The notes under the pieces: model-generated | The model's input: only the letters and a program-made list of their open reading frames with translations | Told to the model about the DNA's origin: nothing | Database searches by the model: none | Origin: Methanobacteriota archaeon | Lineage (GTDB): Archaea > Thermoplasmatota > Thermoplasmata > UBA10834 | Reading direction: 5' to 3' | DNA length: 64,000 nt | Assembly (NCBI GenBank): GCA_020347645.1 | Contig: CP070736.1 | Coordinates: forward strand, 176,626-240,625 | Part shown: positions 1,906-25,996 of the stretch, one piece after another | Numbering within the stretch: position 1 is the first letter of the stretch | Layout: every line of letters begins with the position of its first letter | Position numbers and translations under genes: made by a program

Positions 1906-2532
1906 ATGAGCATGTTTTCCGATGACGAGGGCAAGATGGCGGTCGGAATCGCTAGATCAGCTATCGAGAATCACATTCGCAGCGATCAGCCGCCTGATTT
2001 CGAAGTGCCCGACGTGTTCAATAGAAGATCCGGTGTCTTTGTGACGCTAACGACGCATCCAGACAACGGCCTCCGAGGGTGCATAGGCTACCCTGAACCC
2101 GTCGTTCCTTTGATACAGGCGTTGATCGATTCTGCCATAAACGCTGCGTCCAGAGACCCGCGGTTTTCGCCGATCAGCGAAGCGGAACTCGATCGGATCC
2201 GCGTGGAGGTCAGTCTTCTAACGCCTCCCGAGGAGATATCAGTCAGTGACGTGGCTGACCTCCCAAAGCGAATCAAGGTAGGCGAGGACGGACTGATTGT
2301 GCAGCGCGACGGGGCAAGAGGCCTCCTTCTGCCCCAGGTGGCGGTCGAATGGGGCTGGGACTCAGAGGAGTTCCTGTGTCAGGCTTGTATGAAGGCCGGA
2401 GTGAGCCCTGACGCTTGGTTGATGCCGGGCACCAAGATATCAATCTTCAGAGCTGAGGTATTCTCGGAGACTGAACCTCAAGGGAATGTCGTCAGAAGGG
2501 AGCTCGATGAGCAGCATGGATGTAGTCGTTAA
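1906..2532 (+). CDS. AMMECR1-domain protein
   Basis: About 208 residues with the diagnostic LRGCIGYPEP motif, followed by the conserved RDPRF and the C-terminal LLPQVAVEWGWD segment of AMMECR1 proteins. The family is widespread in archaea and often linked to MEMO-like and radical-SAM partners; its biochemical activity is not settled. ATG 1906 is preferred over the upstream TTG 1867, because GATACTTATTC at about 1872-1882 looks like a TATA box whose expected transcript start falls at about 1905, giving a leaderless mRNA. The 3' end overlaps the start of the dihydroorotase gene, so the two are probably translated from one message. Confidence 0.9.
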   Translation: MSMFSDDEGKMAVGIARSAIENHIRSDQPPDFEVPDVFNRRSGVFVTLTTHPDNGLRGCIGYPEPVVPLIQALIDSAINAASRDPRFSPISEAELDRIRVEVSLLTPPEEISVSDVADLPKRIKVGEDGLIVQRDGARGLLLPQVAVEWGWDSEEFLCQACMKAGVSPDAWLMPGTKISIFRAEVFSETEPQGNVVRRELDEQHGCSR

Positions 2533-3805
2533 GGGCAAGTGCTATGTCGAAGGCCGATTGTACGACCGATGCATAGGAGTCGTAGACGGTAGGATAGCAG
2601 CGATCGGCGCGAACATAGACGGCGAGCGAGTTTACGACTTCGGCGGCAAATTGATACTGCCTTCGGCTGTCGACGCACACGTTCATATGCGCGACCCAGG
2701 AGCGACGCACAAAGAGGATTTCGCGACCGGCTCCCTCGCGGCGTTGCACGGAGGAGTGACCTGCGTGATGGACATGCCGAACACGGACCCACCTACAACC
2801 ACTGTAGCAGCGCTCAGGGAAAAGGCGAACATAGCCGCCGCCAAGAGCTACTCTGATTTCGGCCTGTTCGCTGGCGTTGCTCAAGGCTGCGACCCGGCAG
2901 CGCTCTCTGCAGGAGTGATCGGCTTCAAAATGTACATGGCAGGTACCACAGGGAATCTCCATGTGCCGTCGCTCGAATCCATAAGAAACGAGCTCGCGGA
3001 AGTTGCGTCAACTGGGAAGGTCCTCGCTGTGCATGCAGAGAACGAAGCTCTCAGGGGGAAGGGGGCGGAGAAATCCCTCGGCGACCATCTAAGAAACCGA
3101 CCAAACGAATGCGAGACGAGCGCGATAAGAAAGCTGAATAATCTCGCCGTGCCAGGCCTTAAGACTCACGTCTGCCATGTCTCCGCGAAGGAATCCCTTC
3201 GGTTCGTCTCAAAGTCCAAAGAACGGACTTTTGAGGTCACCCCGCACCACCTTCTTCTAGACCAGGATTCGAAGCTCTCGACCTACGGCAAGGTCAATCC
3301 TCCCTTGAGGAATAGGAGGGACAGGCAGGCGTTGTTCAATGCGCTCAAAGAGGATTTGTTCACCATCGTCGCCTCGGACCATGCTCCTCACACCATCGAG
3401 GAAAAGGAGGAGGATTTCGACTTCGCGCCCTGCGGCATGCCGGGTGTGGAGACGATCGTCCCACTAATGCTTCAGCTTGTTAGGGATAGACACATATCGA
3501 TTCAGACTTTTGTAAGAGTCTTATGCGAGAGGCCGGCGGAGCTGTTCGGTCTCAACAAAGGGAGACTGTGTCTGTATCGAGACGCTGACATCATGATAGT
3601 TGATTTGATGAAGAGCACGGAGATAAAGGCCGATAGATTGCATTCTAGATGCGCTTGGACGCCGTACGAAGGCATGTCTGGCATCTTTCCCAAGGCGGTC
3701 TTTTTAAGAGGGGAGATAATGATAGAGGACGGCGCCTGGATAGGAGAACGCGCGGGAAGGAACGTCGTTGAATCGCAGAGGAAACCGGTGGAAGCCGAAG
3801 CCTGA
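2507..3805 (+). CDS. pyrC: Dihydroorotase
   Basis: Catalyses reversible cyclisation of carbamoyl-aspartate to dihydroorotate, the third step of pyrimidine synthesis, in the cytoplasm. The amidohydrolase metal motif HVHMRDPG lies near residue 59, followed by FKMYMAGTTG, CHVSAKES (about 222), HHLLLD and ASDHAPH (about 289), all in family order. Length (432 residues) fits class I dihydroorotases. ATG 2507 is preferred because GAAGGGAG sits just upstream; ATG 2486 and 2516 are alternatives. The gene overlaps the AMMECR1 gene, and the YkgJ-like gene starts one base after its stop, so the three form an operon. Confidence 0.93.
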   Translation: MSSMDVVVKGKCYVEGRLYDRCIGVVDGRIAAIGANIDGERVYDFGGKLILPSAVDAHVHMRDPGATHKEDFATGSLAALHGGVTCVMDMPNTDPPTTTVAALREKANIAAAKSYSDFGLFAGVAQGCDPAALSAGVIGFKMYMAGTTGNLHVPSLESIRNELAEVASTGKVLAVHAENEALRGKGAEKSLGDHLRNRPNECETSAIRKLNNLAVPGLKTHVCHVSAKESLRFVSKSKERTFEVTPHHLLLDQDSKLSTYGKVNPPLRNRRDRQALFNALKEDLFTIVASDHAPHTIEEKEEDFDFAPCGMPGVETIVPLMLQLVRDRHISIQTFVRVLCERPAELFGLNKGRLCLYRDADIMIVDLMKSTEIKADRLHSRCAWTPYEGMSGIFPKAVFLRGEIMIEDGAWIGERAGRNVVESQRKPVEAEA

Positions 3806-3806
3806 C

Positions 3807-4931
3807 ATGACAGAGCTGCATGGAAGGACTTTCTCATGCATCGACGGCTGCGCCCTATGCTGTCTCTGTCAACCGGAACTCCTCTCCCATGAGCGGAGGG
3901 TCTTTCAAGGTGACCCAAAATTGAGCGCGGGTGTCGCGTCCACCCACATGTCCCCTGACGTCAATGGCGCGGCACTGCGACTCGTGGGAGGTCACGGAGC
4001 GTGCTACTTCCTGGACGGTAGACGATGTGGAGTTTACGAACATCGACCTCACTTTTGTAGGTCTTTCCCTCTGAACGTTTTCGTCGGCTGGAGGGTTCAG
4101 CTGAATGTCAACATGTCGTGCCGGGGGCTTGGTCGCCCTGGAGAACGGCTCGTGCGACTAGGCGAAATGCTCCTATCCGAATACGGAGAGGTGCAGCTCG
4201 GTCACGAGCTTTCATCGGCAAACGATTCGTTCACCCGATTCGAGAGCAACGCCCGCGAAGAGAGGGTCGCACAATCGTTCTCGTCTGTCCGACACACGGC
4301 CGAGATGCTCAAGGATGAGCTTACGGACGGGATAGGCCTAAGCCGCGTGATGACCCATGCCGAATACGGACAGGCGAACCAGGACTCACCCCCTGCGGAT
4401 ATTGCCAGATTAGTTAGAGAAACCGAGGCAGAGGCGGACATATCCGAACGGGCGCTCATGGACGGCGTCGAGTTGTTCGATCTGCCGAACCTCAGCCTCC
4501 TTCCAATCTACGTCGGCCCCGATCTTTCGTGGAAGATCTTCAGGTTGGAGGGCAGTTCAATAGTAGCGAGGAGCATTGACGATTCCGGTGAAGCACTGGA
4601 GTTCTGCCGGATTGACCCGGCTTCGGTAAACCTGTTGCCGATGACTGCCAGTGGCAGAAGATCGCTACAAGGGTATTTGGCAACATTGAATGCAAGGGAT
4701 TGCCTACTTGGTCATGCGGCATACTTGTGCGACATTGAAGGGTATGAATTCAACTTCGGCCAGGTATACCTCGGGACGCTCGCAAATAGCGTGATCGACC
4801 TGTGGTGGAGAGCTTCGTTACTGGCCCAGTTGGCCGGCGTCGAACAGCTCGGGCAGGAAGAAATCAAGGAGGGGATAGTCTTCTTCGACATGGACATCCT
4901 CGACCTCCCAACGATAGGATCGTTCATCTAG
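3807..4931 (+). CDS. YkgJ-type zinc/iron-chelating cluster protein
   Basis: A 374-residue protein. The N-terminus carries the family signature: SCIDGCALCCLC followed by CGVYEHRPHFCRSFPL and a later Cys in MSCRGL, the cysteine layout of the YkgJ (CxxxCxxCC) family, thought to bind a metal or Fe-S cluster. The C-terminal 240 residues show no recognisable motif and are longer than in minimal family members. It starts one base after the pyrC stop and belongs to that operon. The substrate or client is unknown. Confidence 0.82.
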   Translation: MTELHGRTFSCIDGCALCCLCQPELLSHERRVFQGDPKLSAGVASTHMSPDVNGAALRLVGGHGACYFLDGRRCGVYEHRPHFCRSFPLNVFVGWRVQLNVNMSCRGLGRPGERLVRLGEMLLSEYGEVQLGHELSSANDSFTRFESNAREERVAQSFSSVRHTAEMLKDELTDGIGLSRVMTHAEYGQANQDSPPADIARLVRETEAEADISERALMDGVELFDLPNLSLLPIYVGPDLSWKIFRLEGSSIVARSIDDSGEALEFCRIDPASVNLLPMTASGRRSLQGYLATLNARDCLLGHAAYLCDIEGYEFNFGQVYLGTLANSVIDLWWRASLLAQLAGVEQLGQEEIKEGIVFFDMDILDLPTIGSFI

Positions 4932-9386: not shown

Positions 9387-10001
9387 ATGGAGAAGATTTC
9401 CAAGCCGAGGAAGGCAAGGATGGACGAGAGAGCAGAGATGGGAGTGGGAACGCTTCTCATCTTCATCGCAATGATCCTAGTCGCAGCGGTCGCTGCGGGC
9501 GTGCTCGTTCAAACAGCCTATCAGCTTCAACAACAGGCGGAGACAACGGGCGAACATGCGCTGATGGAGATTGCGACAGGGCTGAGAACGCTGGCGACGT
9601 ACGGTGTTACCGACGCAAACCTGACGACTATAACGGACTTGTATCTAAAGGTCGCCTTGTCTGCCGGTAGTCCGGTGATAAACCTCGCAGACGTCGTGAT
9701 AGAGATATCCACGGGAACCGTGGACGACACTTTGTCGTTCTCAAACAACGGCTCTGCTGCTGGAACATACGAGGCGTCCCAGCTTAGAGACACATACCCA
9801 TCGGACATATGGACTTCGACCGATGCTGGAATAACGCAGGGAGATATTGCCCTTATACACGTAAACCTAACGGCTAATGGGATGGGGCTGGTAACGCAGC
9901 AAACTGTTAATCTCCTAATCATCCCGAAGCACGGCATTCCGACATACGTCGACATAACCACGCCTTCCGTGTACTCGAACATATATGAGATACTGACATG
10001 A
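9387..10001 (+). CDS. arlB: Archaellin (archaellum filament subunit) 1
   Basis: 204 residues. The class III signal peptide ends ...[16 protein letters not shown], cleaved after Gly by the prepilin peptidase ArlK/PibD, followed by the hydrophobic assembly helix (about 16-45) ending [12 protein letters not shown]. The outer beta domain follows, with [20 protein letters not shown] and the C-terminal [16 protein letters not shown] shared with the archaellin at 13122-13754. Subunits are assembled by ArlH/I/J into the rotating filament. GGAGG lies 8 bases before ATG. Its stop overlaps the ArlE-like gene (ATGA), so the two are translationally coupled. Repeat copy 1 precedes it. Confidence 0.95.
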
Positions 10002-10507
10002 ACGACCAGTATGAATCAGAAGAGGAAGAGGACGAATTTGTAGAGCAGCCTCCTTCGGTCCTAGAGAGGATTGTGGTCGACTCCAGGACCAACTTGGTCA
10101 CGATGAGGTGGATAGGGTTCCTCATCGACAAGGCTGGTCTGGAGGCACTCCCCGAGCTCTTCCGATATTACTGCAGCATAGGCTGGATCAGTGAAGAGGT
10201 CGAGATTCACCTGTCGACGGTGGCGGACGGATTGAAAGCCCCGATACACGAGGACGAACCGGAACTCGTCTACGAGGAGATAGAGGATCGGAACATACTG
10301 GTGACGAAGACCGGTGTCAAGAAGAAGCCCAAGAAGGGTGAAGTCGATTCTGCCGATGACTGGAGACTGACGCCTGAAGACCATCTGAAGTCATGGCTGT
10401 TCATACTCGAGATAGCCGGAATCGGAACCGATAAGAACCTCTGGTACGAACTCAGACAGAAGATGGATTTCCTCGAAAGAGGGCTTGACGAGTATTGCCA
10501 GATATGA
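9998..10507 (+). CDS. ArlD/E-domain (FlaE-like) protein, second copy beside archaellin 1
   Basis: 169 residues: an acidic N-terminus ([14 protein letters not shown]), then the FlaD/E domain with [22 protein letters not shown] and the C-terminal signature [20 protein letters not shown]. The same signature ends the ArlC/D/E fusion at 13868-15016. ArlC/D/E form the cytosolic ring that links the motor to chemotaxis (CheF) in euryarchaea. The start ATG overlaps the archaellin 1 stop by four bases. A stand-alone ArlE copy paired with one archaellin is unusual. It may form an alternative ring component or be a duplicate in transit (inference). Confidence 0.88.
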
Positions 10508-10801: not shown

Positions 10802-10884
10802 ACCGTTTCTGATAGCGCCTTAGCTTTGGGGACTCATTGAAAGGAGCGCGTACAGTCCCATGCCCTATGCCAGGAGAGATATGG

Positions 10885-12603
10885 ATGGGGCTTGTGAAGC
10901 TCAGCAGGGATTTGCGCAAAGATGAAGAGGCCGACATAGGTATCGGCACACTGATCATTTTCATAGCTATTGTCCTGGTCTCCGCTATCGCTGCGTCGCT
11001 CATGTTGTACGCCGCAGCGCTTCTGCAACAGCAGGCACAAAAGACCGTCGATGATTCTGTGTCCGAAGTGTCAGGTGGGATATCAATCGTAAACGTCGCC
11101 GGAGACAGGAATCCGGACGGTGCAGACACATCCATCGTATCTGGCTATATGCCTGCAAGAGATAATCAGGAGCCTATCGGCGGAGTGCTGCGGAACACGA
11201 CCGTAACAAGCGACGGCGTCTCGCCTCTTGGCGTTATTCTAAACTGGACTTCGGCAATGGACTACGGCTCAGGCCTTGCGGAGGAGATAGTTTACAGGAC
11301 TTCTGTCTACGACCCTACGAATCCGGACACATTCAATGAGCAAGTGGCGAGGAATAGGTTGCTGACCATCGAGCAGTTGGGTCCGACGTATGAGTTGGCG
11401 CGTCTGAGTCCCGAACCAGGGGCCAATGTACAGTACATCGATTATACAGTGCGAGACGACAACTCGACATCCTATGCCTACTCTATCGTCGGCGTGGACC
11501 GTGCCGGTAACAGAGCCCTATATGCCTCAATCGACAGTTCGGCGTCAACTGACGACACGACCCAGGACGAGGACCTCACTGTCCCGATAGGAGGATCGAT
11601 GACCAACACCGCAGCCGTTGACGACTATAGTGTAATAGTATTCTGGGTCCCTGCGTCTGACGCAGACAGTGGTATATCGAAACAAGAACTGTATCGGGGA
11701 GAATACCCACTGGCTCCGACGACTACCGCAATTCAGGAGGGAAGAACGGTTCTGTCACTCCCCACCTCAACATTACTGTTAGTATTCAACGACACTGCAT
11801 CTAGCTATGTAGATGCTCCGCCTGCACCGGGCAACTATGTGTATTTCGTGATCTCATACGACAAATCCGGCAACGAGCTGATGCTCGGAACGCTGTCGTA
11901 CACGTCTTCAACCGCCGATCAACTTCCTCCTACTGCTGCTGAAGAGGTGGCGGCACGGCAGGACGTCTTGTCCGTCGCGATCACCTGGGATGCGGCGACT
12001 GATGCGGAGACCATCGTTGCCACGTATCTTGTGTTCAGAGGTTCGACATGCTCTCAGCTAGACAGTGTCGAGGAACTCATGGCGATGACCCCTCTAGCGG
12101 AACTTGACGCAGGACAACGCGCATATTCGGACTACGCTGGAGCGACGGGCTGCCTATACTACTACGTCGTTGTCGCAGTAGATCTTGCTGGCAACTACGC
12201 GTTGCCTGTCACGCCCTCGAACACCGTCCAGATGATAGAGGTCAAGGTGGAGACCGTGCCTGGCAGCAAGCCGATACTATTCACATCCCTGATGATAGAG
12301 ATAACCGACGGAGAGACTGATGTGACTCTGTCGTTCAACGCCGGGACGTGGGGCCCTGAAGGCGCGGACTCGTATAGGTACTCGGTCGAGATACTGAGGG
12401 ATTCCGACGGCGTCTTCGCCGACACCTATTCGCTATGCGACAGCGGTCTTGTGAAGATATTCATCGACGCCGGCGAAGTCGGTTTGAACCTATACGCCCA
12501 ATCCTCTTTTTCCATGAAATTCATCCCCACGATAGGGCAGCCAACTCTGGAGGAGTGTCAGATCCCGTACCTCGGATCGTATCGGTACATCAACTTGGTC
12601 TGA
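10885..12603 (+). CDS. Archaellin-like protein carrying three FN3-like units
   Basis: 572 residues, almost three times an archaellin. The N-terminus is a class III signal and assembly helix (EEADIG/IGTLIIFIAIVLVSA). The C-terminal 120 residues (from VKVETVPGSKPILF at about 452) follow the outer domain of the two neighbouring archaellins strand by strand (LMIEITDGETDVTLSF, GLVKIFIDAGEVG, SFSMKFIPTIGQPTLEECQI). Between them lie three fibronectin-III-like units, each starting with a V-I/V-x-W strand and ending in a Y-x-V-x-D-x-AGN-type strand: about 110-206 (VDRAGNRA), 240-330 (YDKSGNEL) and 350-437 (VDLAGNYA). ATG 10885 follows AGGAGAG. Possibly a decorated minor filament, cap or adhesive archaellin (inference). 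Confidence 0.88.
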   Translation: MGLVKLSRDLRKDEEADIGIGTLIIFIAIVLVSAIAASLMLYAAALLQQQAQKTVDDSVSEVSGGISIVNVAGDRNPDGADTSIVSGYMPARDNQEPIGGVLRNTTVTSDGVSPLGVILNWTSAMDYGSGLAEEIVYRTSVYDPTNPDTFNEQVARNRLLTIEQLGPTYELARLSPEPGANVQYIDYTVRDDNSTSYAYSIVGVDRAGNRALYASIDSSASTDDTTQDEDLTVPIGGSMTNTAAVDDYSVIVFWVPASDADSGISKQELYRGEYPLAPTTTAIQEGRTVLSLPTSTLLLVFNDTASSYVDAPPAPGNYVYFVISYDKSGNELMLGTLSYTSSTADQLPPTAAEEVAARQDVLSVAITWDAATDAETIVATYLVFRGSTCSQLDSVEELMAMTPLAELDAGQRAYSDYAGATGCLYYYVVVAVDLAGNYALPVTPSNTVQMIEVKVETVPGSKPILFTSLMIEITDGETDVTLSFNAGTWGPEGADSYRYSVEILRDSDGVFADTYSLCDSGLVKIFIDAGEVGLNLYAQSSFSMKFIPTIGQPTLEECQIPYLGSYRYINLV

Positions 12604-13867: not shown

Positions 13868-15016
13868 ATGGCAGGCCTGTTCCGTAAGAAACCAGCAAAG
13901 GGCGATTCCTCCCGAAGGAGGTTGAAGGATTTCGAGGAGGATGCGGAAGAGGAGGTCTACGACGAATTCCAGCCAGTTGGAGGCGAGGATGATGGATATC
14001 AAACCTTTGGCGACAATGATGAGTTGGTGCAGACAGACGACTTCGATGACGTCGGTATGTCCGGTGTCAAGGAGTTTTCCGAGATCCTCGGCCGACTTGA
14101 GGAGATCGAGGACAAAATCGGACGCATAGACTCCGCACTGACGACCGAAAAGAACGAAGGCAGCAAGGACCGAGAACGGCTGAACCTAATGGAGCAGGAC
14201 ATCAGGAAGCTGCTTTCAGTCTACGAGATCGTCTCCGCCAAGATCAATCCATTTATCGATGTCTCCGACCGTGAAGCTCCTGACAAGGAGGCTCAGCAGC
14301 AGGCTCTGCCTGAACTAGAGTTGCCAGAGTCAGGATTGGACGAGGATCTGCCCGAATTCAGACCTTTCGGAGAAGGAAACGACGAAGAGCTATTCGAAAG
14401 AATGACGACCTCCAGAACCGACCGAGGCACCTCCCCGTGGGAGCCAGGAACGCCGACCGAATCCGATGAAGTAGCGAGGACCAAAGCAAGGATGTTATCC
14501 CAACAAGTCCGACGAGACTTTTCGTCTGCAGACGAAAGAGGAGAGCAAGAGGTTAGAGCCGCAGCCAGGAGCAAACACAACAAGAAACCGCTCCTGGCGT
14601 ACGTATGCCATGACTACCTCACACTCGTGCTCGTAATGCGATGGATAGAATTCCTATTCGAACGCGTGCCACGAGACAGAATCTCTCTCGTCTTAGACTA
14701 CTATGTCGACGTCGGATGGATAAGCGAGGACGTGAAATCTGAAATCATGTCCTATGCCCGTGGTGAAATGCAAGATGTCAACAAGTATATGGAATACGAG
14801 GAAGCGCGCGAAGAGGTCTTCAAAGACCTCCCCACTCCAGACGCAGCGACCTACAAGAAGGTAGAGGACTGGAGACTCACTGCGGACGACCATCTGAAAT
14901 CCTTGCTCTTCATACAAAAGATCGCAGGGTTCGAGATCGACAAGGATCGGCTAAACTCCCTAGAACAGAACATCTCGAAGTTCAAAGAGAGCTTGGAGGG
15001 CTTTCATGGGGTTTAG
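13868..15016 (+). CDS. ArlC/ArlD/E fusion protein (archaellum cytosolic ring)
   Basis: 382 residues. The N-terminal acidic linker (to about 70) is followed by the ArlC-like coiled-coil region (FSEILGRLEEIEDKIGRI, then MEQDIRKLLSVYEIVSAKIN), an acidic Pro-rich linker, and a C-terminal ArlD/E domain (YLTLVLVMRWIEFLFE, YVDVGWISEDV, DWRLTADDHLKSLLFI). Fused ArlC/D/E proteins are typical of euryarchaea; they form the cytoplasmic ring around the motor and receive the chemotaxis signal. The 3' end overlaps the arlF start by 11 bases. Between 13755 and 13867 a GC hairpin (CCTT-GCC/GGC-AAGG, about 13791-13826) precedes it. Confidence 0.92.
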   Translation: MAGLFRKKPAKGDSSRRRLKDFEEDAEEEVYDEFQPVGGEDDGYQTFGDNDELVQTDDFDDVGMSGVKEFSEILGRLEEIEDKIGRIDSALTTEKNEGSKDRERLNLMEQDIRKLLSVYEIVSAKINPFIDVSDREAPDKEAQQQALPELELPESGLDEDLPEFRPFGEGNDEELFERMTTSRTDRGTSPWEPGTPTESDEVARTKARMLSQQVRRDFSSADERGEQEVRAAARSKHNKKPLLAYVCHDYLTLVLVMRWIEFLFERVPRDRISLVLDYYVDVGWISEDVKSEIMSYARGEMQDVNKYMEYEEAREEVFKDLPTPDAATYKKVEDWRLTADDHLKSLLFIQKIAGFEIDKDRLNSLEQNISKFKESLEGFHGV

Positions 15017-16199
15017 TGTCTCAGCAACAATGGCGATATTCTTCGCCACCTTTCTCTTTCTTTTTTCTATCCTGTACAATTCGGTTAATGAGGCTTTCGA
15101 CTCAGTCTCGGAATCATTCGACGACAGATACGAATACATGAGTGAAAGGGCTCAGACGAGCATTGAAATCACGAGCCTAACGTACGACGAGCACAACGAC
15201 CGGCTCGAAATCGCAGTCCACAACACGGGTAGCGTGCCGTTGGAGATCGACAAGACCAGCATTCTCATAGGTGGGGTAACAGTCGACCCTCAGATGATGG
15301 AAATCGATGATGTATCGACGGACATCTGGCTTCCGCTCGAGACTCTGACTATAACTATTGCAGACCCGAACATGACCTTTGACGCATCGGTGAATCCCAG
15401 AACATTCGCCCATAGCGATGCAGGGCTGTCCAGTCCATCGAACATCTCGGTCGGGGAGTCCGTCTATGTTATAGACGGAACAAGCGTTGATGTCATGTCG
15501 CGCGAAGGACTCCTTGAATTTACGATAACGGATCCGACCAACCTCGTCTCGCCTGTTGATCTGAAGGTGAGCAGCGATTATCTTTACATTCTTGACGAAA
15601 GTGCCCATGTTGACAGATACAACCTCGACGGAAGATGGGTAGACAAGTTCATAGACGATTCGGCAAACACGTCCGCTCCAAAATCTCTATCGGTTGATGA
15701 TGAATACGTTTACCTCATCGACGGCTATTCTCATTTGGACAGATATAACAGGACGACTGGCGCGTTCGTCGATCAACTGATAGCTAATGGAGGGACTATG
15801 ACCGCTCCCCAGGACGTCTTTGTTGGCGCGTTCATATTCGTAATCGATAGTGCTTCGGGCAGTTTTCATATCGATAGATATTCATTGGATGGGAGCAGCG
15901 GAACAGAGATCGTGTCCTCTGACAGGTTGTCTGCTCCAGGGGACATCGCAGCTAGCGCGGTGAATCTTGAGGAGCGATGTCTCTACGTCCTCAACAACAG
16001 CAGAGAAATCCTCGTCTTGGACGAGGACGGTTCATCTATTGGAACGGTCAGCAGCAGTCTGAGCAGCTCTGTGATGGGCGTCGACGTCTCGGGAAAAATC
16101 TTTGTCTCTGACCAAGCGAATGGGCTCGTTGTCGAGAACCTCGGAACGAGCGTCAAGGTGGTGACGGAAAATGGCGTATCAGATATCATTATGCTATAG
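15006..16199 (+). CDS. arlF: ArlF (FlaF) stator protein with an inserted beta-propeller
   Basis: 397 residues, against about 130-170 usual. A transmembrane helix (about 5-26) is followed by the ArlF beta-sandwich (LEIAVHNTGSVPLEIDKTSI, WLPLETLTITIAD). At about residue 135 the sandwich is interrupted by six tandem repeats of about 40 residues, each with a strand pattern like LKVSSDYLYILDESAHVDRY (15550-16130), which read as a six-bladed propeller. The last ArlF strand then returns at the C-terminus: VKVVTENGVSD, the same ending as in ArlG. ArlF anchors the motor to the S-layer outside the membrane, so the insert faces outward. It probably enlarges the contact with the cell envelope (inference). 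Confidence 0.88.
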   Translation: MGFSVSATMAIFFATFLFLFSILYNSVNEAFDSVSESFDDRYEYMSERAQTSIEITSLTYDEHNDRLEIAVHNTGSVPLEIDKTSILIGGVTVDPQMMEIDDVSTDIWLPLETLTITIADPNMTFDASVNPRTFAHSDAGLSSPSNISVGESVYVIDGTSVDVMSREGLLEFTITDPTNLVSPVDLKVSSDYLYILDESAHVDRYNLDGRWVDKFIDDSANTSAPKSLSVDDEYVYLIDGYSHLDRYNRTTGAFVDQLIANGGTMTAPQDVFVGAFIFVIDSASGSFHIDRYSLDGSSGTEIVSSDRLSAPGDIAASAVNLEERCLYVLNNSREILVLDEDGSSIGTVSSSLSSSVMGVDVSGKIFVSDQANGLVVENLGTSVKVVTENGVSDIIML

Positions 16200-16214: not shown

Positions 16215-16652
16215 ATGAGTGCGAGCGGCGGAGCCACTGAGTTGATATTCTTCGTTTCTGCAGTCATTGTAGCGACCGCAGTTGTCGCGGTCGCGGCCAA
16301 CGGCATCTACGACCTGACGGAAGGGATAGATGATAGGGGCGACCAGGTCAAGGACGAGATGTCGACTCGGATTGTCATCATAAACGACCCGTCAGCAATC
16401 CCGAACGATCCCGTTCTAATCTACGTGAAGAACATCGGAACGACTACACTGAACCACAACTATATCAGTGTGATGTTGGATGGAGTTTCAAGAACCGACC
16501 TTACGCTGTCGTTGAGCGGGAACAGGACTTCGTTCTGGGAACCCACTAGCCTGCTGACGATATCAATCGACCAGAACCTTTCATCAGGTGACCACACGGT
16601 ACAAGTGACCACCGAGAACGGAGTCTCAGACACGCTCAGCTTCCGCATGTAG
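16215..16652 (+). CDS. arlG: ArlG (FlaG) stator protein
   Basis: 145 residues of normal size: N-terminal transmembrane helix (LIFFVSAVIVATAVVAVAAN, 9-29) and one beta-sandwich domain (VLIYVKNIGTTTLNHNYISV, TVQVTTENGVSDTLSF). ArlG forms a filament-like cap with ArlF in the pseudoperiplasm and is part of the stator. It follows arlF by 15 bases with GGGAGAGGAG as ribosome site and precedes arlH by about 20 bases. Confidence 0.93.
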   Translation: MSASGGATELIFFVSAVIVATAVVAVAANGIYDLTEGIDDRGDQVKDEMSTRIVIINDPSAIPNDPVLIYVKNIGTTTLNHNYISVMLDGVSRTDLTLSLSGNRTSFWEPTSLLTISIDQNLSSGDHTVQVTTENGVSDTLSFRM

Positions 16653-16671
16653 GGAGGAGGTGAACTCCCCG

Positions 16672-17370
16672 TTGGGCGACATCTACAAGCTTCAGATAGC
16701 CAGGGATGACCTGCACGACCAGCTTGGCCAGGGGCTTCCAACGGGAACTATTACTCTGATTGAAGGAGCCAAGGGCTCTGGGAAGAGCGCAATCCTTGAA
16801 CGCATGATCTTCGGATTCCTAAGCAACGAACACTCCGTGACCTGCATCTCGACGGAGTTGACAGTCAAGGACTTCATAGACCAGATGTACTGCCTCGACT
16901 ATCCCATCGCGTCTTGGCTGCTTAACGGCAGACTGAAGTTCGTCCCCGTCTATCCTCTCATAGGAAACAGCCGCAACAGGAAGGATTTCCTCGGTATGCT
17001 GATGAGTTCGAAAGAGCTCTTCAACAGCGATGTCATCATAATAGATACCTTCTCGAGCCTCGTGAGCAATAGTCTGCGCGGGGAGGAAAACAGCATCAAC
17101 GTGCTGGGATTCTTCAAGAAGCTCACGGGAATGAACAAGAGCGTCGTCGTCTCTGTCGACCCGGATGAGGTAGAGGGCGAGGCGCTTTCGCCATTCGAGT
17201 CGGACAGCCATGTGTACCTGAACCTCGTAGTTTCACAGGTTGGAGGTATAATATCGAGGAACATAATGGTTAAGAGATTCGCCAACACACAGTACAGAGT
17301 ATCGCCCATGATAGGATTCAGGATAGAGCCAAATGTAGGAATGGTCATTGAGATCACTTCGGTAGTGTGA
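16672..17370 (+). CDS. arlH: ArlH (FlaH) KaiC-like regulatory ATP-binding protein
   Basis: 232 residues. Walker A GAKGSGKSAI near the N-terminus and Walker B DVIIIDTFSSL. RecA/KaiC-fold ArlH binds ATP, forms a hexameric ring and regulates the ArlI motor ATPase. TTG 16672 is chosen because GGGAGGAGGT (16653-16662) lies 9-10 bases upstream; GTG 16660 overlaps that site. Length is typical. It sits 10 bases before the first arlI gene. Confidence 0.93.
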   Translation: MGDIYKLQIARDDLHDQLGQGLPTGTITLIEGAKGSGKSAILERMIFGFLSNEHSVTCISTELTVKDFIDQMYCLDYPIASWLLNGRLKFVPVYPLIGNSRNRKDFLGMLMSSKELFNSDVIIIDTFSSLVSNSLRGEENSINVLGFFKKLTGMNKSVVVSVDPDEVEGEALSPFESDSHVYLNLVVSQVGGIISRNIMVKRFANTQYRVSPMIGFRIEPNVGMVIEITSVV

Positions 17371-17380
17371 GGGAACGCCG

Positions 17381-19012
17381 ATGGCCACGAAGCTCAGCAG
17401 AGTACTGGAGCGAAACCCGCATCTCAGTATATACATGCAGGAGTACGCCCAGAGAACCAGACAGACGCCTCAGTTCATGGACACGCTATCCAAGGACATC
17501 GGCAAGGAAAGTCAGGTCGACATCGTATATCCAGTAGGAGATCCGATATTCATACATATCCATGGGTCCAAAGACGAGGGACAGCACTACGACGTAGTGC
17601 AGCCGGAGATGGATGAGCACGTCGAGAAGCACTACGACAGAGTTGTGGACAAGATATTCGTGCTGTCCGGCAAGGAGAAGGTGCATGTCACAGATGCGGA
17701 ATTCAACGCGGTGCTAGACGGGCTGTTGGAGAGCATTGTAAAGGTATCGGACAGAGGAGCGCCGTCCAAGCTGACACAGTTGTTCGCACCGACCTCCAAG
17801 GTATATTTGACCGATGAGGAGGCGAGAATAGTCGAGTACTATGTAAAGCGCAACATACTTCAGAACGGTGTTCTGGAACCAGTTCTGAGAGACCCGTACA
17901 TAGAGGACATTCATTGCGTGGGCACCAGGGAGATCAACCTCTATCACAAGATCCTCGGAATGGTGGAGACGAACATCAGATTCAATGATGTCCGGGAGCT
18001 CGACGACTATACAAAATCCATGAGCGAGAGGATGGGTAGGCCTGCATCGATTTCGAGGCCTATAATCGATGGAGCGCTGCCCGATGGCTCACGTATAAAC
18101 ATAGTCTATGCCGACGACGTGAGCGTCAGCGGTCCCACATTCACCATCAGGAAATTCTCTACCGAACCGCTGAGCTCCGCTCAACTGGCCGGATGGAACA
18201 CGATATCGTCTCAGGAAGCGGCCTATCTTTGGCTCTGCCTTGAGAATGGCATGAGCGTGTTCGTATGCGGCGAGACGGCGTCTGGAAAGACAACTCTGTT
18301 GAATTCAATATTCCCGTTCATAAGATACGACCAGAAGATCTTCTCCGCGGAGGACACTCTCGAGGTGCAGCCGCCGCACTCTGTATGGCAACAGCTGTCG
18401 ACGAGAGAGTTCGGGCCTGAGGACAGCAAGGTCGACACTTTCGCCCTGCTTCGGTCAGGTCTGAGATCGCGTCCGAACTACATCATAGTGGGCGAGATAA
18501 GAGGGAAGGAAGGCAACGTAGCGTTCCAGGCTATGCAGACGGGCATACCAGTCATGGCTACATTCCATGCGGCTTCCATCAAACGGATGATACAGAGGTT
18601 CACCGGCGCACCTATCAGCGTGCCCGTCACCAGCATGGACAACCTGAATGTGGCGGTGTTTCTTGCGGGAGTCTACAGAAGTGGCAAGCTCATCAGACGC
18701 GTGCTGTCTATCGAGGAGATCCTCGGATACAGCGAATCCATGGGCGGGGTAATGACGAGAGCAGTCTTCGTGTGGAACCCCGTCAACGATCAACACATAT
18801 TCAGAGGCATGAACAACTCGTACATCCTGGAGGAGAGGGTTGCCGTCAAACGGGGATACAAGGACAAGCGCGACATCTATAAGGAGTTGGCGCTAAGGGC
18901 AAAGATCCTCGACAGAATGATCGAGATGAATATGACGAACTACAAGACCGTCAACGACATCCTTAGGGCGTTCCAGAAGGAGGGCGTGTCTGGACTGCCA
19001 TTCACCGTATGA
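17381..19012 (+). CDS. arlI: ArlI (FlaI) motor/assembly ATPase, copy 1
   Basis: 543 residues. Secretion-superfamily ATPase: N-terminal domain ending QVDIVYPVGDPIF; Walker A GETASGKTTLL (about 297-307); the Asp box EDTLEVQPPHS; Walker B IIVGEIRGKEG; the His box MATFHAAS. ArlI hexamers power both filament assembly and rotation. All catalytic motifs are intact. A second complete copy follows at 19220-20866, aligned along its full length. Copy 1 is in the polycistronic run arlF-G-H-I. Confidence 0.95.
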   Translation: MATKLSRVLERNPHLSIYMQEYAQRTRQTPQFMDTLSKDIGKESQVDIVYPVGDPIFIHIHGSKDEGQHYDVVQPEMDEHVEKHYDRVVDKIFVLSGKEKVHVTDAEFNAVLDGLLESIVKVSDRGAPSKLTQLFAPTSKVYLTDEEARIVEYYVKRNILQNGVLEPVLRDPYIEDIHCVGTREINLYHKILGMVETNIRFNDVRELDDYTKSMSERMGRPASISRPIIDGALPDGSRINIVYADDVSVSGPTFTIRKFSTEPLSSAQLAGWNTISSQEAAYLWLCLENGMSVFVCGETASGKTTLLNSIFPFIRYDQKIFSAEDTLEVQPPHSVWQQLSTREFGPEDSKVDTFALLRSGLRSRPNYIIVGEIRGKEGNVAFQAMQTGIPVMATFHAASIKRMIQRFTGAPISVPVTSMDNLNVAVFLAGVYRSGKLIRRVLSIEEILGYSESMGGVMTRAVFVWNPVNDQHIFRGMNNSYILEERVAVKRGYKDKRDIYKELALRAKILDRMIEMNMTNYKTVNDILRAFQKEGVSGLPFTV

Positions 19013-19219: not shown

Positions 19220-20866
19220 ATGCCTGATTACGATGTGGGTCTCAAGAAAGCCTTCAAAAGGAATCCACATCTGAGAGACTACATCGGTAGATTCGTTACC
19301 GAGCACCATGCGACCCCGGAGTTCAAAACGGAGCTTTCAAGGGCGATGGAAGACGTTGAAGCGATAAACATCATATACCCCATCGGCGACCCTCTTTTCG
19401 TACATGTATTCTCTACTAAGAGCGTGCCCATAAGCTACACATCGGTGCAACCCACGCTCACGGACGACCTGCAGATGAAGTTCAACAGGATAATGCGTCG
19501 GGTCTACGACAAGGCAGTCTACAAAGCACCTCATAAAGACATAAAGGAATTCGAGGAGAACCTGACTAAGCTGATAGAAGAATCCACCGTCACCGTCGAG
19601 GAGCAACGACGGGAGAGAAAGGCATTGTTTGGCGATATGTTCTCCGAGCCGAAGGTGCCAGTCACAGACGAGGAAATTGACCTGATTAGGTATCATGCCG
19701 TGCAGAACATAATACTGAGTGGCCCTCTGCAGCCCCTCCTCAGAGATCCCTACATAGAGGATATTCACTGCATAGGCCACGACAACGTCTCAATCGTTCA
19801 CAAGATCTTTCAATCCATGCCCACGAACATCCAGTTCGAGTCGATGGAGGAGCTCGACAACTATGTCAGAGCACTGAGTGAGAGAATCGGACGGCCTGCC
19901 TCGCTGGCCCGACCGATAGTCGACGGTACACTCGCGGACGGATCCAGGATCAATCTGATCTACGCTGACGACGTCAGCGTAAGAGGGCCTAGCTTCTCGA
20001 TCAGAAAATTCGCAGAAGAACCTATCAGCATCACGCAACTGATACAGTGGAACACACTAAGCTCGAGAGAGGCCGCCTATCTATGGCTCTGCCTTGAGGA
20101 GGGCATGAGCGTCTTCTTCTGCGGTGAGACCGCGTCTGGAAAGACCACCACCATGGGAGCCGTTCTCCCGTTCATAAAATATGACAGCAAGGTCTACACG
20201 GCGGAAGACACCATCGAGATGCAGGTGCCGCATAAGGTTTGGCAGAGGCTGGCCACCCGCGATTTCGGACCGGAAGATAGCCGCGTGGACACTTTTGCCT
20301 TGCTGAAGGCGGCGCTCAGGTCTAGACCCAATTACATCATTGTCGGAGAGATAAGGGGGAAAGAGGGCAGCGTGGCTTTCCAGGCTATGCAAACCGGGCA
20401 CCCCGTATTGTCTACTTTCCATGCGGCTTCGACAAGGAAGCTGATTCAGAGGTTTACGAGTGATCCGATAAATGTTCCGATAACATTCATCGATAACCTG
20501 AATGTGGCGTTCTTTCAGGCTGGCATCTATCGGGAAGGCAAGTTCCTCAGGAGGACTATGCTCATAGACGAAATCGTCGGGTTCAACGAAGCACTCGGAG
20601 GCATAATGACTAGGACCGTATTTCTGTGGAATGCGGCGGACGACACCCATGTATTCAAGGGGATGAACAACTCGTACATTCTCGAGGAGAAGATCGCAGT
20701 CAAGAGGGGCTACGGCGACAAGAGGAAGATCTATGATGATCTTGCGCTCCGGACGACTATCCTCGATGAGATGATTGCCAGGAAGATATTCAAGTACGAA
20801 GCGGTGGAAGGAATCTTCAAAGAGTTTCAGAAGAAGGGGGTGAGTGGTCTACCCTTCCCTGTATAG
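19220..20866 (+). CDS. arlI: ArlI (FlaI) motor/assembly ATPase, copy 2
   Basis: 548 residues with complete catalytic equipment: Walker A GETASGKTTTM (about 302-312), EDTIEMQVPHK, Walker B IIVGEIRGKEG and LSTFHAAS. Same domain order as copy 1 and the same C-terminal ending (EFQKKGVSGLPFPV against AFQKEGVSGLPFTV), so the two are a tandem duplication that has diverged, mostly in the first 130 residues. The nearby ArlJ (20876) presumably works with either. Two motor ATPases could serve different filaments or form mixed hexamers (inference). Confidence 0.94.
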   Translation: MPDYDVGLKKAFKRNPHLRDYIGRFVTEHHATPEFKTELSRAMEDVEAINIIYPIGDPLFVHVFSTKSVPISYTSVQPTLTDDLQMKFNRIMRRVYDKAVYKAPHKDIKEFEENLTKLIEESTVTVEEQRRERKALFGDMFSEPKVPVTDEEIDLIRYHAVQNIILSGPLQPLLRDPYIEDIHCIGHDNVSIVHKIFQSMPTNIQFESMEELDNYVRALSERIGRPASLARPIVDGTLADGSRINLIYADDVSVRGPSFSIRKFAEEPISITQLIQWNTLSSREAAYLWLCLEEGMSVFFCGETASGKTTTMGAVLPFIKYDSKVYTAEDTIEMQVPHKVWQRLATRDFGPEDSRVDTFALLKAALRSRPNYIIVGEIRGKEGSVAFQAMQTGHPVLSTFHAASTRKLIQRFTSDPINVPITFIDNLNVAFFQAGIYREGKFLRRTMLIDEIVGFNEALGGIMTRTVFLWNAADDTHVFKGMNNSYILEEKIAVKRGYGDKRKIYDDLALRTTILDEMIARKIFKYEAVEGIFKEFQKKGVSGLPFPV

Positions 20867-20875
20867 ACCCGTCTC

Positions 20876-22534
20876 ATGCCAAGCGGTAACTTCAAGCGCC
20901 TGTACCAATCAATCGAGATGCCTGTCGCGACTTATTTTACAAAGTACGCCCTCCCGCTGGTTATCGCGGGGATAGCCGTGGCAGCTGCCCTGGTGTATCT
21001 GTTTCCTGAATTGGCGACAGACGGCATCTTCAGATACGTCTTCCTCGCGATACCGATTCTCTTCTCCGTCCTTGCCATCACATTTCCGCTGCTTCAGGGG
21101 GAGAGGAGGAAGATGCAGATCGATAGGAACCTTCACCTGTTCCTCATCCGGATGAGCGTCCTCTCGACTTCCAAGCTACCGCGCAAGAAGATGCTGGAGA
21201 TCCTGTCAAAGGTGAAGGAATACGAGGCGTTGAGCGTTGAGATCGAGAAGATCTACAAACTCATGGAGTTCTGGAATATGGGCCTAGCCGACGCTGCGAG
21301 AACCGTCGCTAGAAAGACCCCGTCTCCGGCGCTGGCGGACTTCTTGGACAGGCTCGCCCACTCGTCGGACGCGGGAGAGGACATTGAGGAGTTCCTCTCC
21401 AAGGAGAGGGATGTTGCGGTCAACGTGTACCTGAACAAGTACGAGACAGCGCTGAAAGATCTCGACTTGCTCAACGAGATCTTCGTTGCGGTATTGATCG
21501 CCCTCATGTTCATGCTGGTGTTCATCGCGCTTCTTCCGGTGTTTGTCGACGTCTCGATAACACTGATCCTACCAGGAGTTGCTCTCCTATTCGTGATAAT
21601 CGAGGTGCTGGTACTGTACCTCGTCAAGTCGCTGTTGCCGTCGGACCCTATATGGCACAACATGGAAGAAAGGACAGAGGTGGATGAGACTCTAAAGACC
21701 GTACTTCCCGCGACCTACGCCGCCTGCGTTGCGCTAGCGATATTCGGATTCTACGCAAGGGTTCCGCTCACCGCTGTTGTCGCACTTGTCGTCACCCCTC
21801 TGCTGTACCCGGGTTTCCTCATAAGGAGGGAGGAAAAGAAGGTTCGCGCAAGAGATGAGAACTATGACGCATTCATGAGGGCTGTCGGGAGCTACGCCGC
21901 TTCCGCAGGTTCAGCCGTCACCGACGGTGTCGGGAGGTTGAGCAAACATGATTTTGGCGAGCTCACAACGGGCATCGAGGTGCTCTTCAAGCGGCTATTG
22001 ACGCGCATTGACCAGATCAGGGCTTGGAACTTGTTTGCTGCGGAAACCGGCAGCAACCTCATATCGAAGTTTACCGAGATGTATGTAGTCGGCCTTTCGG
22101 TCGGGGGAAAGGTAGATAGAGTCATCGATATCATCAGCACGAATTTCGTCAAACTCATGGGCGTTCGACGCAAGAGATACCAAGCCTCGGACAACATGCT
22201 TGGCACACTGTACGGAATGTCGATCGGCATCACATTCACGCTATTCTCCGCACTCAGCCTGATGAATCTTTTGAATCAGATGAACGAGCAGTTCGCCCTG
22301 TCGCAGACGACCATAGTGCTGCCCATAGCTCTCCAATCGTTCGACCTGAGCCTCGCAGAGGCCATATTCCTGCTCATAGTCTTCGCACATGCTCTCATCT
22401 CGGCGAACCTCATCGCATTCTCTGGCGGCAGCCACAAACACAGTTTCTACATCAACTTCGCCGTCATCATTTGGATGAGCACCGTGACGGCCTTGGTTAC
22501 GCAGATGATGCTTGACAAGGTTCTCAACCTTTAG
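20876..22534 (+). CDS. arlJ: ArlJ (FlaJ) archaellum membrane platform protein
   Basis: 552 residues of TadC/GspF-type platform: two hydrophobic segments near the N-terminus (ALPLVIAGIAVAAALVYLF and VFLAIPILFSVLAI), two T2SF helical domains on the cytoplasmic side (for example MRAVGSYAASAGSAVTDGV), and clusters of hydrophobic helices at about 205-250, 275-320 and 440-550. It connects the ArlI hexamer to the growing filament. It starts ATG nine bases after arlI copy 2. End of the archaellum cluster. Confidence 0.93.
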   Translation: MPSGNFKRLYQSIEMPVATYFTKYALPLVIAGIAVAAALVYLFPELATDGIFRYVFLAIPILFSVLAITFPLLQGERRKMQIDRNLHLFLIRMSVLSTSKLPRKKMLEILSKVKEYEALSVEIEKIYKLMEFWNMGLADAARTVARKTPSPALADFLDRLAHSSDAGEDIEEFLSKERDVAVNVYLNKYETALKDLDLLNEIFVAVLIALMFMLVFIALLPVFVDVSITLILPGVALLFVIIEVLVLYLVKSLLPSDPIWHNMEERTEVDETLKTVLPATYAACVALAIFGFYARVPLTAVVALVVTPLLYPGFLIRREEKKVRARDENYDAFMRAVGSYAASAGSAVTDGVGRLSKHDFGELTTGIEVLFKRLLTRIDQIRAWNLFAAETGSNLISKFTEMYVVGLSVGGKVDRVIDIISTNFVKLMGVRRKRYQASDNMLGTLYGMSIGITFTLFSALSLMNLLNQMNEQFALSQTTIVLPIALQSFDLSLAEAIFLLIVFAHALISANLIAFSGGSHKHSFYINFAVIIWMSTVTALVTQMMLDKVLNL

Positions 22535-22864: not shown

Positions 22865-25800
22865 ATGGCCACCGTGAGTAGGGCTGCGCTCACGTGCTGC
22901 ATGGCAGGCGTTTTGCTCATCCCGGTGACGCTTGTGCTCTTCCTTCAGGGAATCAGTACGTCGCCCGCTCACGCGCTGCCGACGGACGATTTTGGCGATG
23001 GAATTCGGGTAACCTTCGACCCGGCGGCGTCAGTGAACATCTCATCGGTAGTAGACGACGAGGGGGACATTCATGTCGTCTGGGAGGATTTTAGGTCTGG
23101 TAACGGGGATGTTTATTATGTCAAACTGGACGAAGAAGGGAACAAACTGACCAACGACGCCAAGATCTCCAACGACTCTGCCATGTCACGGCATCCATCG
23201 GTGGCGGTGGACGACTCGGATCATATCTTCATCGTCTGGGAGAGCGTCGAGAACGGCTCCGCAGAGCTGTATTTCGCCAAGCTCTGGTACTACGCAGGCA
23301 ACATTACCTTCGAATACAATGGCTTGAGAGTATCTGACGCCGACCCCGCGAACTCGACGGAGCCGGAAATCAGCATTTGCACCGATGGATCTCTGGCAGT
23401 TGTGTGGACTGATGCCAGGGATGATGTCGGCGATGGAAACCGCGAAATCTACTACAAACGACTCAGTACGACGGGGGCGGCAATAACAGCCGATGTCAGG
23501 GTGACGGGAGATTTCGGGGTCTCGGAACGTCCCCGCATGGATATCGATTCCGCGGGGAATGTTCACATAGTGTGGTACGATTTCAGAGATTCGGATAACG
23601 GGCAGGTCATCAACCACGGCGTGTTCTACCGGAAGGTTACACCGAACGGAGTCCCGATGACCAATGAAACCAGGATAACTTTCGCATCACCGTCTTCGAG
23701 CCCGGACGTGGCAGTCGACACTGACGGGAATGTACATGTCGTATTCGACGATGATAGGTATGCCGCCTTCGATGTGTTCTACACTCTCCTGGATAGTAAC
23801 GGCATGACTCTTGTCGACGACAGAGTGGTTTCGGCGAAGGACGACAACGAGTCGCGTTTCCCTCGCATTTCGTTGAGCGATTCAAGGGTTGTCGATACAG
23901 TTTGGCAGGACTCTGCCTCCGGCGTCTGGGCGATTCATTATTCGGCGATGGTCTACAATGGTTCGCTAGAAGTGTTCGACCAACCCATCTCAGATATGGG
24001 CTCACGCAACGCGACAGGGCCGATCGTAATGTGTGCGAAGGACAACAACACCTTGGTCACGTTCGTCGGGGGAGTGCCCAACGAAGAACTGTTCTTCCTG
24101 AGGACGCACAGAGCAGATATCGCGATTACGGGAGGCGACGTGTCGCTATCGGACACCCAACCATTGGAGGGTTCGACGATACTTGTGAACTTAACCGTTC
24201 GTAATCTAGTTGGGGAAGCCGCCTCCGACCTTGTTGTTGGATTGCTGATCGATGGCGAGTACATCGCCGAGGAGAGCATAGACTCTCTGTTGGCGGGCGC
24301 CACGGCCGCAGTATCTTTCAGCTACACTGTCAAAGCGAGTGATTCGTCCGTGACGGTTGTGCTTGATCCATACCAGTCGATAAGGGAAACCGACGAGTCG
24401 AACAATGCAGTAACGATTCCAATCACCGTGAGGATTCCAGGTGTAGAATTGAGCGCCGATCCCATCAGTAGATCGGTCGAACCGGGGCAAAGCGCCTTGT
24501 TCAACCTCACAATCGAAAACACTGGCTCCTACGCCGCGGATTACAATATAGCCAACTCTGCAATCGGCGACGGATGGAGCGTAGATCTCGAAGCTGGCAG
24601 TGTCTTGACTATTCCACCGACGAATTCGACGAGCTTCCTAGTCAATGTGAGCGTGCCCGAAGGAGTCTCCCCAGGAGTGAGAACCCTAAACATCTCGGCC
24701 ACCTGCACCGACAGGACATCCGTCAATGATACATTGACGCTGATGGTCGACGTCAGACGAGCTGGTGCAATCACTGTGATCGCGCCCGCCGGATGCGCGC
24801 TCGAGCCAACCGTACCCATCAACCTCACATTCCTCGTCACGAACGCTGCCAACTCAAACGAGAGCTTCGAAGTCGAGGCAATCGATGACCGCGGGTGGAT
24901 AACTTCTGTCTCCCGAACCGACCTGACCCTCGTTCCCGGGGAGACGGTGGAAGTTGGAGTAATCGTCACTCCATCCCGCTACGATCCTCCCGGTACGCTT
25001 GACACGCTGACCGTTAGGCTCGAATCCAAGAACCTGTCGACAAACACTGGAGAAGGAAGCGTCCTGTTGATGGCCAGTCATCACAGGGAGATAGATCTGA
25101 GCCTGTCGCAGCAGGCATTTGTCAACTACTCCCTTCCTGAGGATCGGCAAATCATATACTCAATCGGGGTGAGCAACCTGGGCAACTCCGACGAGACGGT
25201 GAAGGTATGGCTTTCCGGTCTAGATTCGTTCTGGGCAGTGCTCAATACGTCATATGTGTTCCTTGATCCGGGACAGAACGATACTGTCCGCCTGACTATG
25301 ACTCCTGGACTCTATGTTCTCGCAGGCGCGTACATTTTCAACGTGAGCGCGTCGTCCGAATCAGACCCGACCGCCAACGACACCTTAGTGATGGGAGTCA
25401 ACGTTCAGCCGTTCTACGACATTGAAACCTACCTTGACCTGCCGGTTGTGTCGCCCGACGGAAGCGAATACTTGACAGTTAACATGACTGTGGAGAATTG
25501 GGGCAACAGCATAGACGTGGTTGACTTCTATGGCTATTCGGAGACACTGAATGGTACGATCCTCGTAATAGGCGGCAATGAGTACGATATCGCCACCGAA
25601 TTGCCCCCACCCTCGACTCTAGAACCGGGCAACCGCGAGGTTGTCAAGATAATGCTGCAGGTCCCAAAGGACGCAGAACCGGGATTGTACACATTCCTGG
25701 TCGATGTATATTCACTGAACGATCCGACCGCAGTTTCCTCGGAGGTGGTAACACTTCTCATACCCGAGAGGGAATCTTTCTTCAACATCTACACAATATT

Positions 25801-25996
25801 GGCGATCGCAGGAGCAGCAGCTACCGCAGCAGCGATGGTGGCTTTCTTGATCCTGAGGAAGAGGGTCAAAGAGCGAGAGGCCGTCGCCGCGGAGCAGAGG
25901 CGGCGAATGCAGCAGAAGAGGGGTTCCCGTCAGGGCAAGCGCCCGATGCCCAAGAACAGAAGGCCCGCTAGCGAGGTGCGGGAGCGCAATAGGTAG
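22865..25996 (+). CDS. Giant secreted, membrane-anchored propeller/CARDB protein
   Basis: 1043 residues. Signal peptide (about 1-37, ending SPAHA). Residues 40-400 contain about seven repeats of the type DEEGDIHVVWEDFRSGNGD (S-x-D-x-x-G-x-x-H-V-x-W-x-D-x-R), a sialidase/WD-like beta-propeller. Then a CARDB-like domain at about 415-520 (LTVRNLVGEAASDLVVGLLI, ETDESNNAVTIPITV), and three or more NEW3/Ig-like domains (LFNLTIENTGSYAADYNI, ISVSNLGNSDETV-like strands). A C-terminal helix (about 975-995) is followed by a 45-residue Arg/Lys-rich tail, so the protein is anchored with its ectodomain outside. No catalytic motif recognised; adhesion or envelope role likely. Not in an obvious operon. Confidence 0.85.
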   Translation: MATVSRAALTCCMAGVLLIPVTLVLFLQGISTSPAHALPTDDFGDGIRVTFDPAASVNISSVVDDEGDIHVVWEDFRSGNGDVYYVKLDEEGNKLTNDAKISNDSAMSRHPSVAVDDSDHIFIVWESVENGSAELYFAKLWYYAGNITFEYNGLRVSDADPANSTEPEISICTDGSLAVVWTDARDDVGDGNREIYYKRLSTTGAAITADVRVTGDFGVSERPRMDIDSAGNVHIVWYDFRDSDNGQVINHGVFYRKVTPNGVPMTNETRITFASPSSSPDVAVDTDGNVHVVFDDDRYAAFDVFYTLLDSNGMTLVDDRVVSAKDDNESRFPRISLSDSRVVDTVWQDSASGVWAIHYSAMVYNGSLEVFDQPISDMGSRNATGPIVMCAKDNNTLVTFVGGVPNEELFFLRTHRADIAITGGDVSLSDTQPLEGSTILVNLTVRNLVGEAASDLVVGLLIDGEYIAEESIDSLLAGATAAVSFSYTVKASDSSVTVVLDPYQSIRETDESNNAVTIPITVRIPGVELSADPISRSVEPGQSALFNLTIENTGSYAADYNIANSAIGDGWSVDLEAGSVLTIPPTNSTSFLVNVSVPEGVSPGVRTLNISATCTDRTSVNDTLTLMVDVRRAGAITVIAPAGCALEPTVPINLTFLVTNAANSNESFEVEAIDDRGWITSVSRTDLTLVPGETVEVGVIVTPSRYDPPGTLDTLTVRLESKNLSTNTGEGSVLLMASHHREIDLSLSQQAFVNYSLPEDRQIIYSIGVSNLGNSDETVKVWLSGLDSFWAVLNTSYVFLDPGQNDTVRLTMTPGLYVLAGAYIFNVSASSESDPTANDTLVMGVNVQPFYDIETYLDLPVVSPDGSEYLTVNMTVENWGNSIDVVDFYGYSETLNGTILVIGGNEYDIATELPPPSTLEPGNREVVKIMLQVPKDAEPGLYTFLVDVYSLNDPTAVSSEVVTLLIPERESFFNIYTILAIAGAAATAAAMVAFLILRKRVKEREAVAAEQRRRMQQKRGSRQGKRPMPKNRRPASEVRERNR

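Follow-up and report, generated by a model that had tools for sequence, protein, structure and literature searches.

How the stator of the archaellum grips the cell envelope is an open question, and the locus described here bears on it because a large, conserved domain appears to be built into the proposed anchor itself. The window, i.e. the whole stretch of 64,000 nucleotides that was analysed, contains at positions 15006-16199 an open reading frame of 397 amino acids, which an earlier note had read as the stator protein ArlF interrupted by a six-bladed β-propeller. Is the protein an ArlF, where does the additional domain enter it, how old is the arrangement, and what might such a domain do in a motor?

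A genuine ArlF in a complete archaellum operon

The frame at 15006-16199 encodes a genuine ArlF, as established by its NCBIfam score and its place in the operon, and its boundaries proved to be exactly those reported earlier. The NCBIfam ArlF model (NF052590) matched residues 1-120 of the 397-residue protein over model positions 1-121 of 137 with 112.9 bits, above the cut-off of 110. The archaellum operon is complete, comprising archaellins and the series arlCDE-arlF-arlG-arlH-arlI-arlI-arlJ, with arlF between arlCDE and arlG:

13868..15016, forward strand: arlCDE fusion, sharing an 11-base overlap with the start of arlF (Pfam FlaC_arch and Arch_fla_DE)
15006..16199, forward strand: arlF, 397 aa, ArlF with inserted propeller (open reading frame and NCBIfam ArlF equivalog)
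16215..16652, forward strand: arlG, 145 aa, without the insertion (NCBIfam ArlG as best model; Pfam Arch_flagellin, 65.6 bits)
16660..17370, forward strand: arlH (NCBIfam ArlH, 239.8 bits; cut-off 215)
17381..19012, forward strand: arlI copy 1 (NCBIfam archaellum ATPase, 721 bits; cut-off 550)
19220..20866, forward strand: arlI copy 2 (NCBIfam archaellum ATPase, 722 bits; cut-off 550)
20876..22534, forward strand: arlJ (NCBIfam ArlJ, 552 bits; cut-off 550), entered in the motor tree

The arlG product scored 97.6 bits on the NCBIfam ArlG model, below the cut-off of 110, though this was still its best model. Homologues of the window's ArlF from the DHVE2 group and from G446, a genome of another class (see below), scored 42-59 bits on the NCBIfam ArlF model, below its cut-off of 110.

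Other features of these operons are recorded here in their own right. The two tandem arlI genes are both full-length, score above the archaellum-ATPase cut-off and have an intact Walker A motif; the pair is also present in G002, G006, G007 and G019, members of the window's order, and DHVE2 operons have a single arlI. According to reviews, one ArlI does assembly as well as rotation. A 588-aa archaellin (10837-12603) has its archaellin parts, at about residues 33-99 and 461-587, split by a long insert that is kept across the window's order and has fibronectin type III-like repeats as judged by eye, with no Pfam match. A separate second gene of ArlD/E type (9998-10507) lies near the operon start, apart from the arlCDE fusion. 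The propeller-type operons of DHVE2 (L113, L108 and L028) have no recognisable arlCDE beside arlF and an archaellin directly upstream of it, and about 7 kb of other genes separate arlH from arlI in the propeller-type operon of G446 (L133, 5148-12199).

The insertion precedes the terminal hairpin of one sandwich

The insertion point was located by scoring every possible excision against a profile built from 12 short stator proteins of ArlF/ArlG type (mostly ArlF). With the best splice, which kept residues 1-124 and resumed at residue 381, 256 residues were removed and the score went from 102 bits to 121; the top values in the controls were 108 bits with 230 propeller 18-mers as tails and 116 bits with 500 shuffled tails. 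Upon excision of the insert in silico, the match to Pfam Arch_flagellin increased from 25.7 to 39.9 bits and covered positions 2-160 of the 162 in the profile, and NCBIfam ArlF was matched with 126.3 bits over its entire length (1-137 of 137). Because the spliced protein restores complete ArlF and archaellin models, the two ends can be taken as halves of a single domain, with the insert placed before the terminal hairpin. As judged from these sequence matches, the carrier protein is a helix followed by one complete archaellin-like sandwich, interrupted before its terminal hairpin:

15006..15377, forward strand: ArlF residues 1-124, N-terminal helix (5-49) and first sandwich strands (AF2; ArlF model match)
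15378..16145, forward strand: ArlF residues 125-380, insertion, six-bladed NHL-like β-propeller as predicted (splice search, AF2, Foldseek, profile search, blade leave-one-out)
16146..16196, forward strand: ArlF residues 381-397, terminal β-hairpin completing the sandwich (spliced-sequence match; alignment with ArlG TVQVTTENGVSD)

The splice search, the six blades of the structure prediction described below and the assignment by sequence of both halves to one domain thus uphold the proposed reading, in which a six-bladed propeller interrupts an ArlF. A large insertion near the C-terminal end is indeed present, although at about 256 residues it exceeds the 245 that had been counted, and the sandwich resumes after it, with two strands (382-386 and 392-396) and not the single one expected.

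The inserted domain is predicted to be a six-bladed propeller

An AlphaFold2 (AF2) model run on ten homologues (pLDDT 82, pTM 0.71) placed a helix at residues 5-49 and sandwich strands at 53-119 and 382-396, with five four-stranded blades and a sixth of three strands between them. The AF2 strand list put the blade starts near residues 143, 182, 226, 267, 312 and 355, and a closing strand near residue 133, by which blade 6 is apparently completed from the N-terminal side. Ring closure by an N-terminal strand is usual for such propellers. A second AF2 model, of a DHVE2 ArlF homologue, had the same six-blade plan with its closing strand at 121-125, so that the lists of both homologues give 23 strands plus a closing strand, equivalent to six blades of four strands. 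Closure of the six blades into a ring is therefore predicted by these strand lists taken together with the fold matches. Confidence was low over the linker at residues 120-140, with blocks of 66 and 53, which makes any modelled angle between propeller and sandwich uncertain.

The best solved structures matched by Foldseek were NHL propellers (1q7f, 4zlr, 5ex7 and 7nyq), with target TM scores of 0.69-0.73, and a sequence-profile search of solved chains retrieved the NHL domains of TRIM2, TRIM3 and Thin at 1e-5. Single-sequence searches of PDB and Pfam missed the propeller, and a profile was needed to recognise it. Since no Pfam NHL match was obtained in 10 homologues, but solved NHL chains were matched at 1e-5, we refer to the domain as NHL-like and not as NHL. 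In a leave-one-out comparison, in which each blade was scored with a profile built from the rest, blades 1-5 all outscored the 300 shuffles, and blade 6 was not recognisable from sequence. No tandem repeats were found at the DNA level, suggesting that the blades are old.

Distribution, origin and conservation of the propeller-type ArlF

A search of 400 genomes from the class gave matches over the full length in 8 members of the window's order and in 13 of one family (f14), which comprises Aciduliprofundum-type archaea of the DHVE2 group; in the other ArlF-bearing families of the class the match extended over the short ArlF part only. Elsewhere in the phylum, a propeller ArlF (408 aa, profile match 1 to 392) is encoded by a single genome from another class, G446, and one scan of genome contigs beyond the phylum yielded no further lineage with this form. 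The search of related archaella suggested in the earlier note was thus productive, the same insertion being present in 22 genomes (8 of the order, 13 of the DHVE2 family and G446). In a set of 60 relatives, the genomes with the propeller form were exactly those with a true ArlJ, namely 8 of the order and the genome G032, and a Thermoplasma-type genome had a short ArlF. For the window's order, true ArlJ and propeller ArlF coincide in these 8 genomes, and its remaining genomes have no motor.

In a tree of 39 ArlJ proteins, all 17 from propeller-type operons fell in one clade with support of 100/99; outside it lay the second motors of G446 and of G205, a DHVE2 genome. In comparisons within the order, conservation is higher in the propeller than in the surrounding sandwich, at 77 versus 59% (propeller versus N-terminal sandwich) for the nearest relative, 62 versus 38% in a further comparison and 46 versus 34% for the other family. 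These values suggest that the propeller has a function of its own. The insertion is old and under constraint, and apparently of single origin. That it reflects a chimeric assembly or a fused neighbouring gene can practically be dismissed, as the same frame of 355-411 aa without internal stops was found in 22 genomes; two of these, G032 and G074, are single contigs, and the operon of G032 was inspected. The window's own genome is estimated to be 65% complete.

Two stator types in one genome

Two genomes contain both forms of the protein. In G205, the propeller-type operon is on contig C17, and C13 carries another operon whose ArlF is 144 aa long; in G446, C14 holds the propeller-type operon and C117 the short-type one, likewise with an ArlF of 144 aa. 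The loci are L107 and L108 in G205, and L120 and L133 in G446. Tetranucleotide distances within the pairs were 0.114 (G205) and 0.152 (G446), compared with about 0.21 or more to the other archaellum loci examined, which argues against contamination; both assemblies are fragmented. If the pairs are real, one envelope serves both stator types and hence does not demand the propeller. A suspected second archaellum in G374 was discarded because the extra contig holds a propeller-type motor. Genomes with both stator types offer a natural comparison. One tentative and rather doubtful reading is that the propeller gives its motor lineage an anchor of its own, through a dedicated partner or a shaft collar, and that a cell of the G205/G446 type runs two archaella, each held by a different type of stator.

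Proposed role of the propeller

The identity of the protein, the insertion point, the propeller fold by prediction, its conservation and its restriction to a single clade are established by the results above, and frame any proposal for its function. We consider it reasonably probable that this true ArlF acquired an NHL-like propeller once, before the terminal hairpin, in the ancestor of its motor lineage, and that the propeller serves as a stable, envelope-gripping head at the tip of the stator. ArlF has been reported to cap the ArlG filament and to bind the S-layer, with motility ceasing when this binding is lost (PMC12024892, PMC13319060), and recent reviews state that the position of ArlF and ArlG within the intact motor has yet to be established (PMC12024892, PMC8978795). 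By analogy with this published work, the helix and sandwich of the window's ArlF would do the ordinary job of pairing with ArlG and capping the ArlG filament in the pseudoperiplasm, and the propeller would enlarge the tip of the stator into a stable head for binding. Such a head would grip an envelope protein, either the S-layer or another surface glycoprotein, and would thereby let the motor push against the envelope. Envelope binding by the propeller is put forward as the simplest reading, as propellers can bind many things, sugars or the filament among them. A change in how the stator is anchored, which the earlier note had anticipated, would be plausible.

A gene for a 1043-aa surface protein (22865-25996), with a BNR-like N-terminal part, CARDB and NEW3 domains and, as judged by eye, a C-terminal membrane segment, is found after arlJ in the window's order; G002 and G006 have the whole gene, and in G019 it is truncated where the contig stops. 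This protein was considered as a general partner and rejected, given that G032 has a DNA polymerase gene after arlJ and that no relative was present in the other DHVE2 loci.

The earlier proposal of an unusual envelope as the reason for the propeller is weakened. Compensation for an unusual or missing S-layer would be in line with the existence of cell-wall-deficient relatives among the Thermoplasmatales (PMC5155288, PMC12448462), but the ArlF of S-layer-less Thermoplasmatales is of the ordinary, short type and lacks any special motif (PMC12448462; short forms were also found here), G205 and G446 each hold a propeller ArlF together with a short one, and the propeller form spans two classes, following one ArlJ clade from one into the other. 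We regard this explanation as improbable. The tracking of a motor clade and not of an envelope is, in turn, what would be expected if the propeller contacted the motor's own parts, for instance if the propellers of several ArlF copies formed a collar that guides the shaft where it crosses the envelope, acting as a bushing and not in S-layer binding. Published models in which stator proteins scaffold the motor (PMC8978795) are compatible with such a bearing, which we nonetheless hold to be unlikely, the filament proteins differing between the orders (the extra long-insert archaellin occurs only in the window's order).

The propeller might instead face outward as a ligand-binding or adhesive domain for a sugar, a surface or a signal, with the stator reaching the cell surface and the sandwich still acting as the anchor. 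NHL propellers do act as extracellular sensor domains, e.g. in PknD (1rwi, among the matches), and other lineages have added surface-adhesion domains to the stator, namely PKD in ArlF or ArlG (L116 and, as judged by eye, L165) and DUF2341 on an ArlF-like helix (L118). That a highly conserved insertion was retained by every archaellated member found in the two orders is more in keeping with a core mechanical role than with a variable adhesin, and an adhesive or sensory function thus appears somewhat unlikely. A domain of about 27 kDa per ArlF might be visible by cryo-tomography and would then mark the place of the stator in the motor.

Comparison with known systems

No description of a propeller in ArlF was found in the literature searched, which was mostly without subscription journals. 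Other enlarged stator proteins were noticed elsewhere in the phylum. In G408 (L116), an ArlF with three C-terminal PKD domains (2364-3614) adjoins an ArlG with apparently three tandem archaellin-like sandwiches (3604-4650). In G580 (L118, 6926-8116), an arlF-arlG pair of ordinary type is followed downstream by a gene, truncated at the contig end, that fuses an ArlF-like N-terminal helix to a DUF2341 domain, and G462 encodes an ArlG-like protein with a PKD-like extension, as judged by eye. Together, the PKD, DUF2341 and propeller cases indicate that the stator has been enlarged in more than one way. The ArlF of L116, from another class, resembles that of the window in being enlarged by extracellular domains, and differs in that its three PKD domains follow a complete sandwich, whereas the propeller lies within one.

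The Thermoplasmatales (Oxyplasma, Thermoplasma) belong to the same phylum and have the same motor protein; unlike the window's ArlF, theirs reportedly departs little from other ArlF, and a 2025 study that set ArlF models from archaea with and without an S-layer side by side detected no distinct binding motif (PMC12448462). With the NHL propellers of Brat (1q7f/4zlr), Mei-P26 (7nyq), TRIM2, Thin and PknD (1rwi), the domain shares a plan of six four-stranded blades in one closed ring, predicted in the present case, but it sits inside the sandwich of a rotary-motor stator, with about 14% identity and no Pfam NHL match. Finally, the protein shares with ArlF/FlaF (PDB 4p94, 4zbh, 5tug and 6pbk; NF052590) the N-terminal helix, the single archaellin-like sandwich and the neighbouring arlG, and is set apart from them by the 256-residue propeller before the terminal hairpin and a length of about 397 versus about 140 amino acids.
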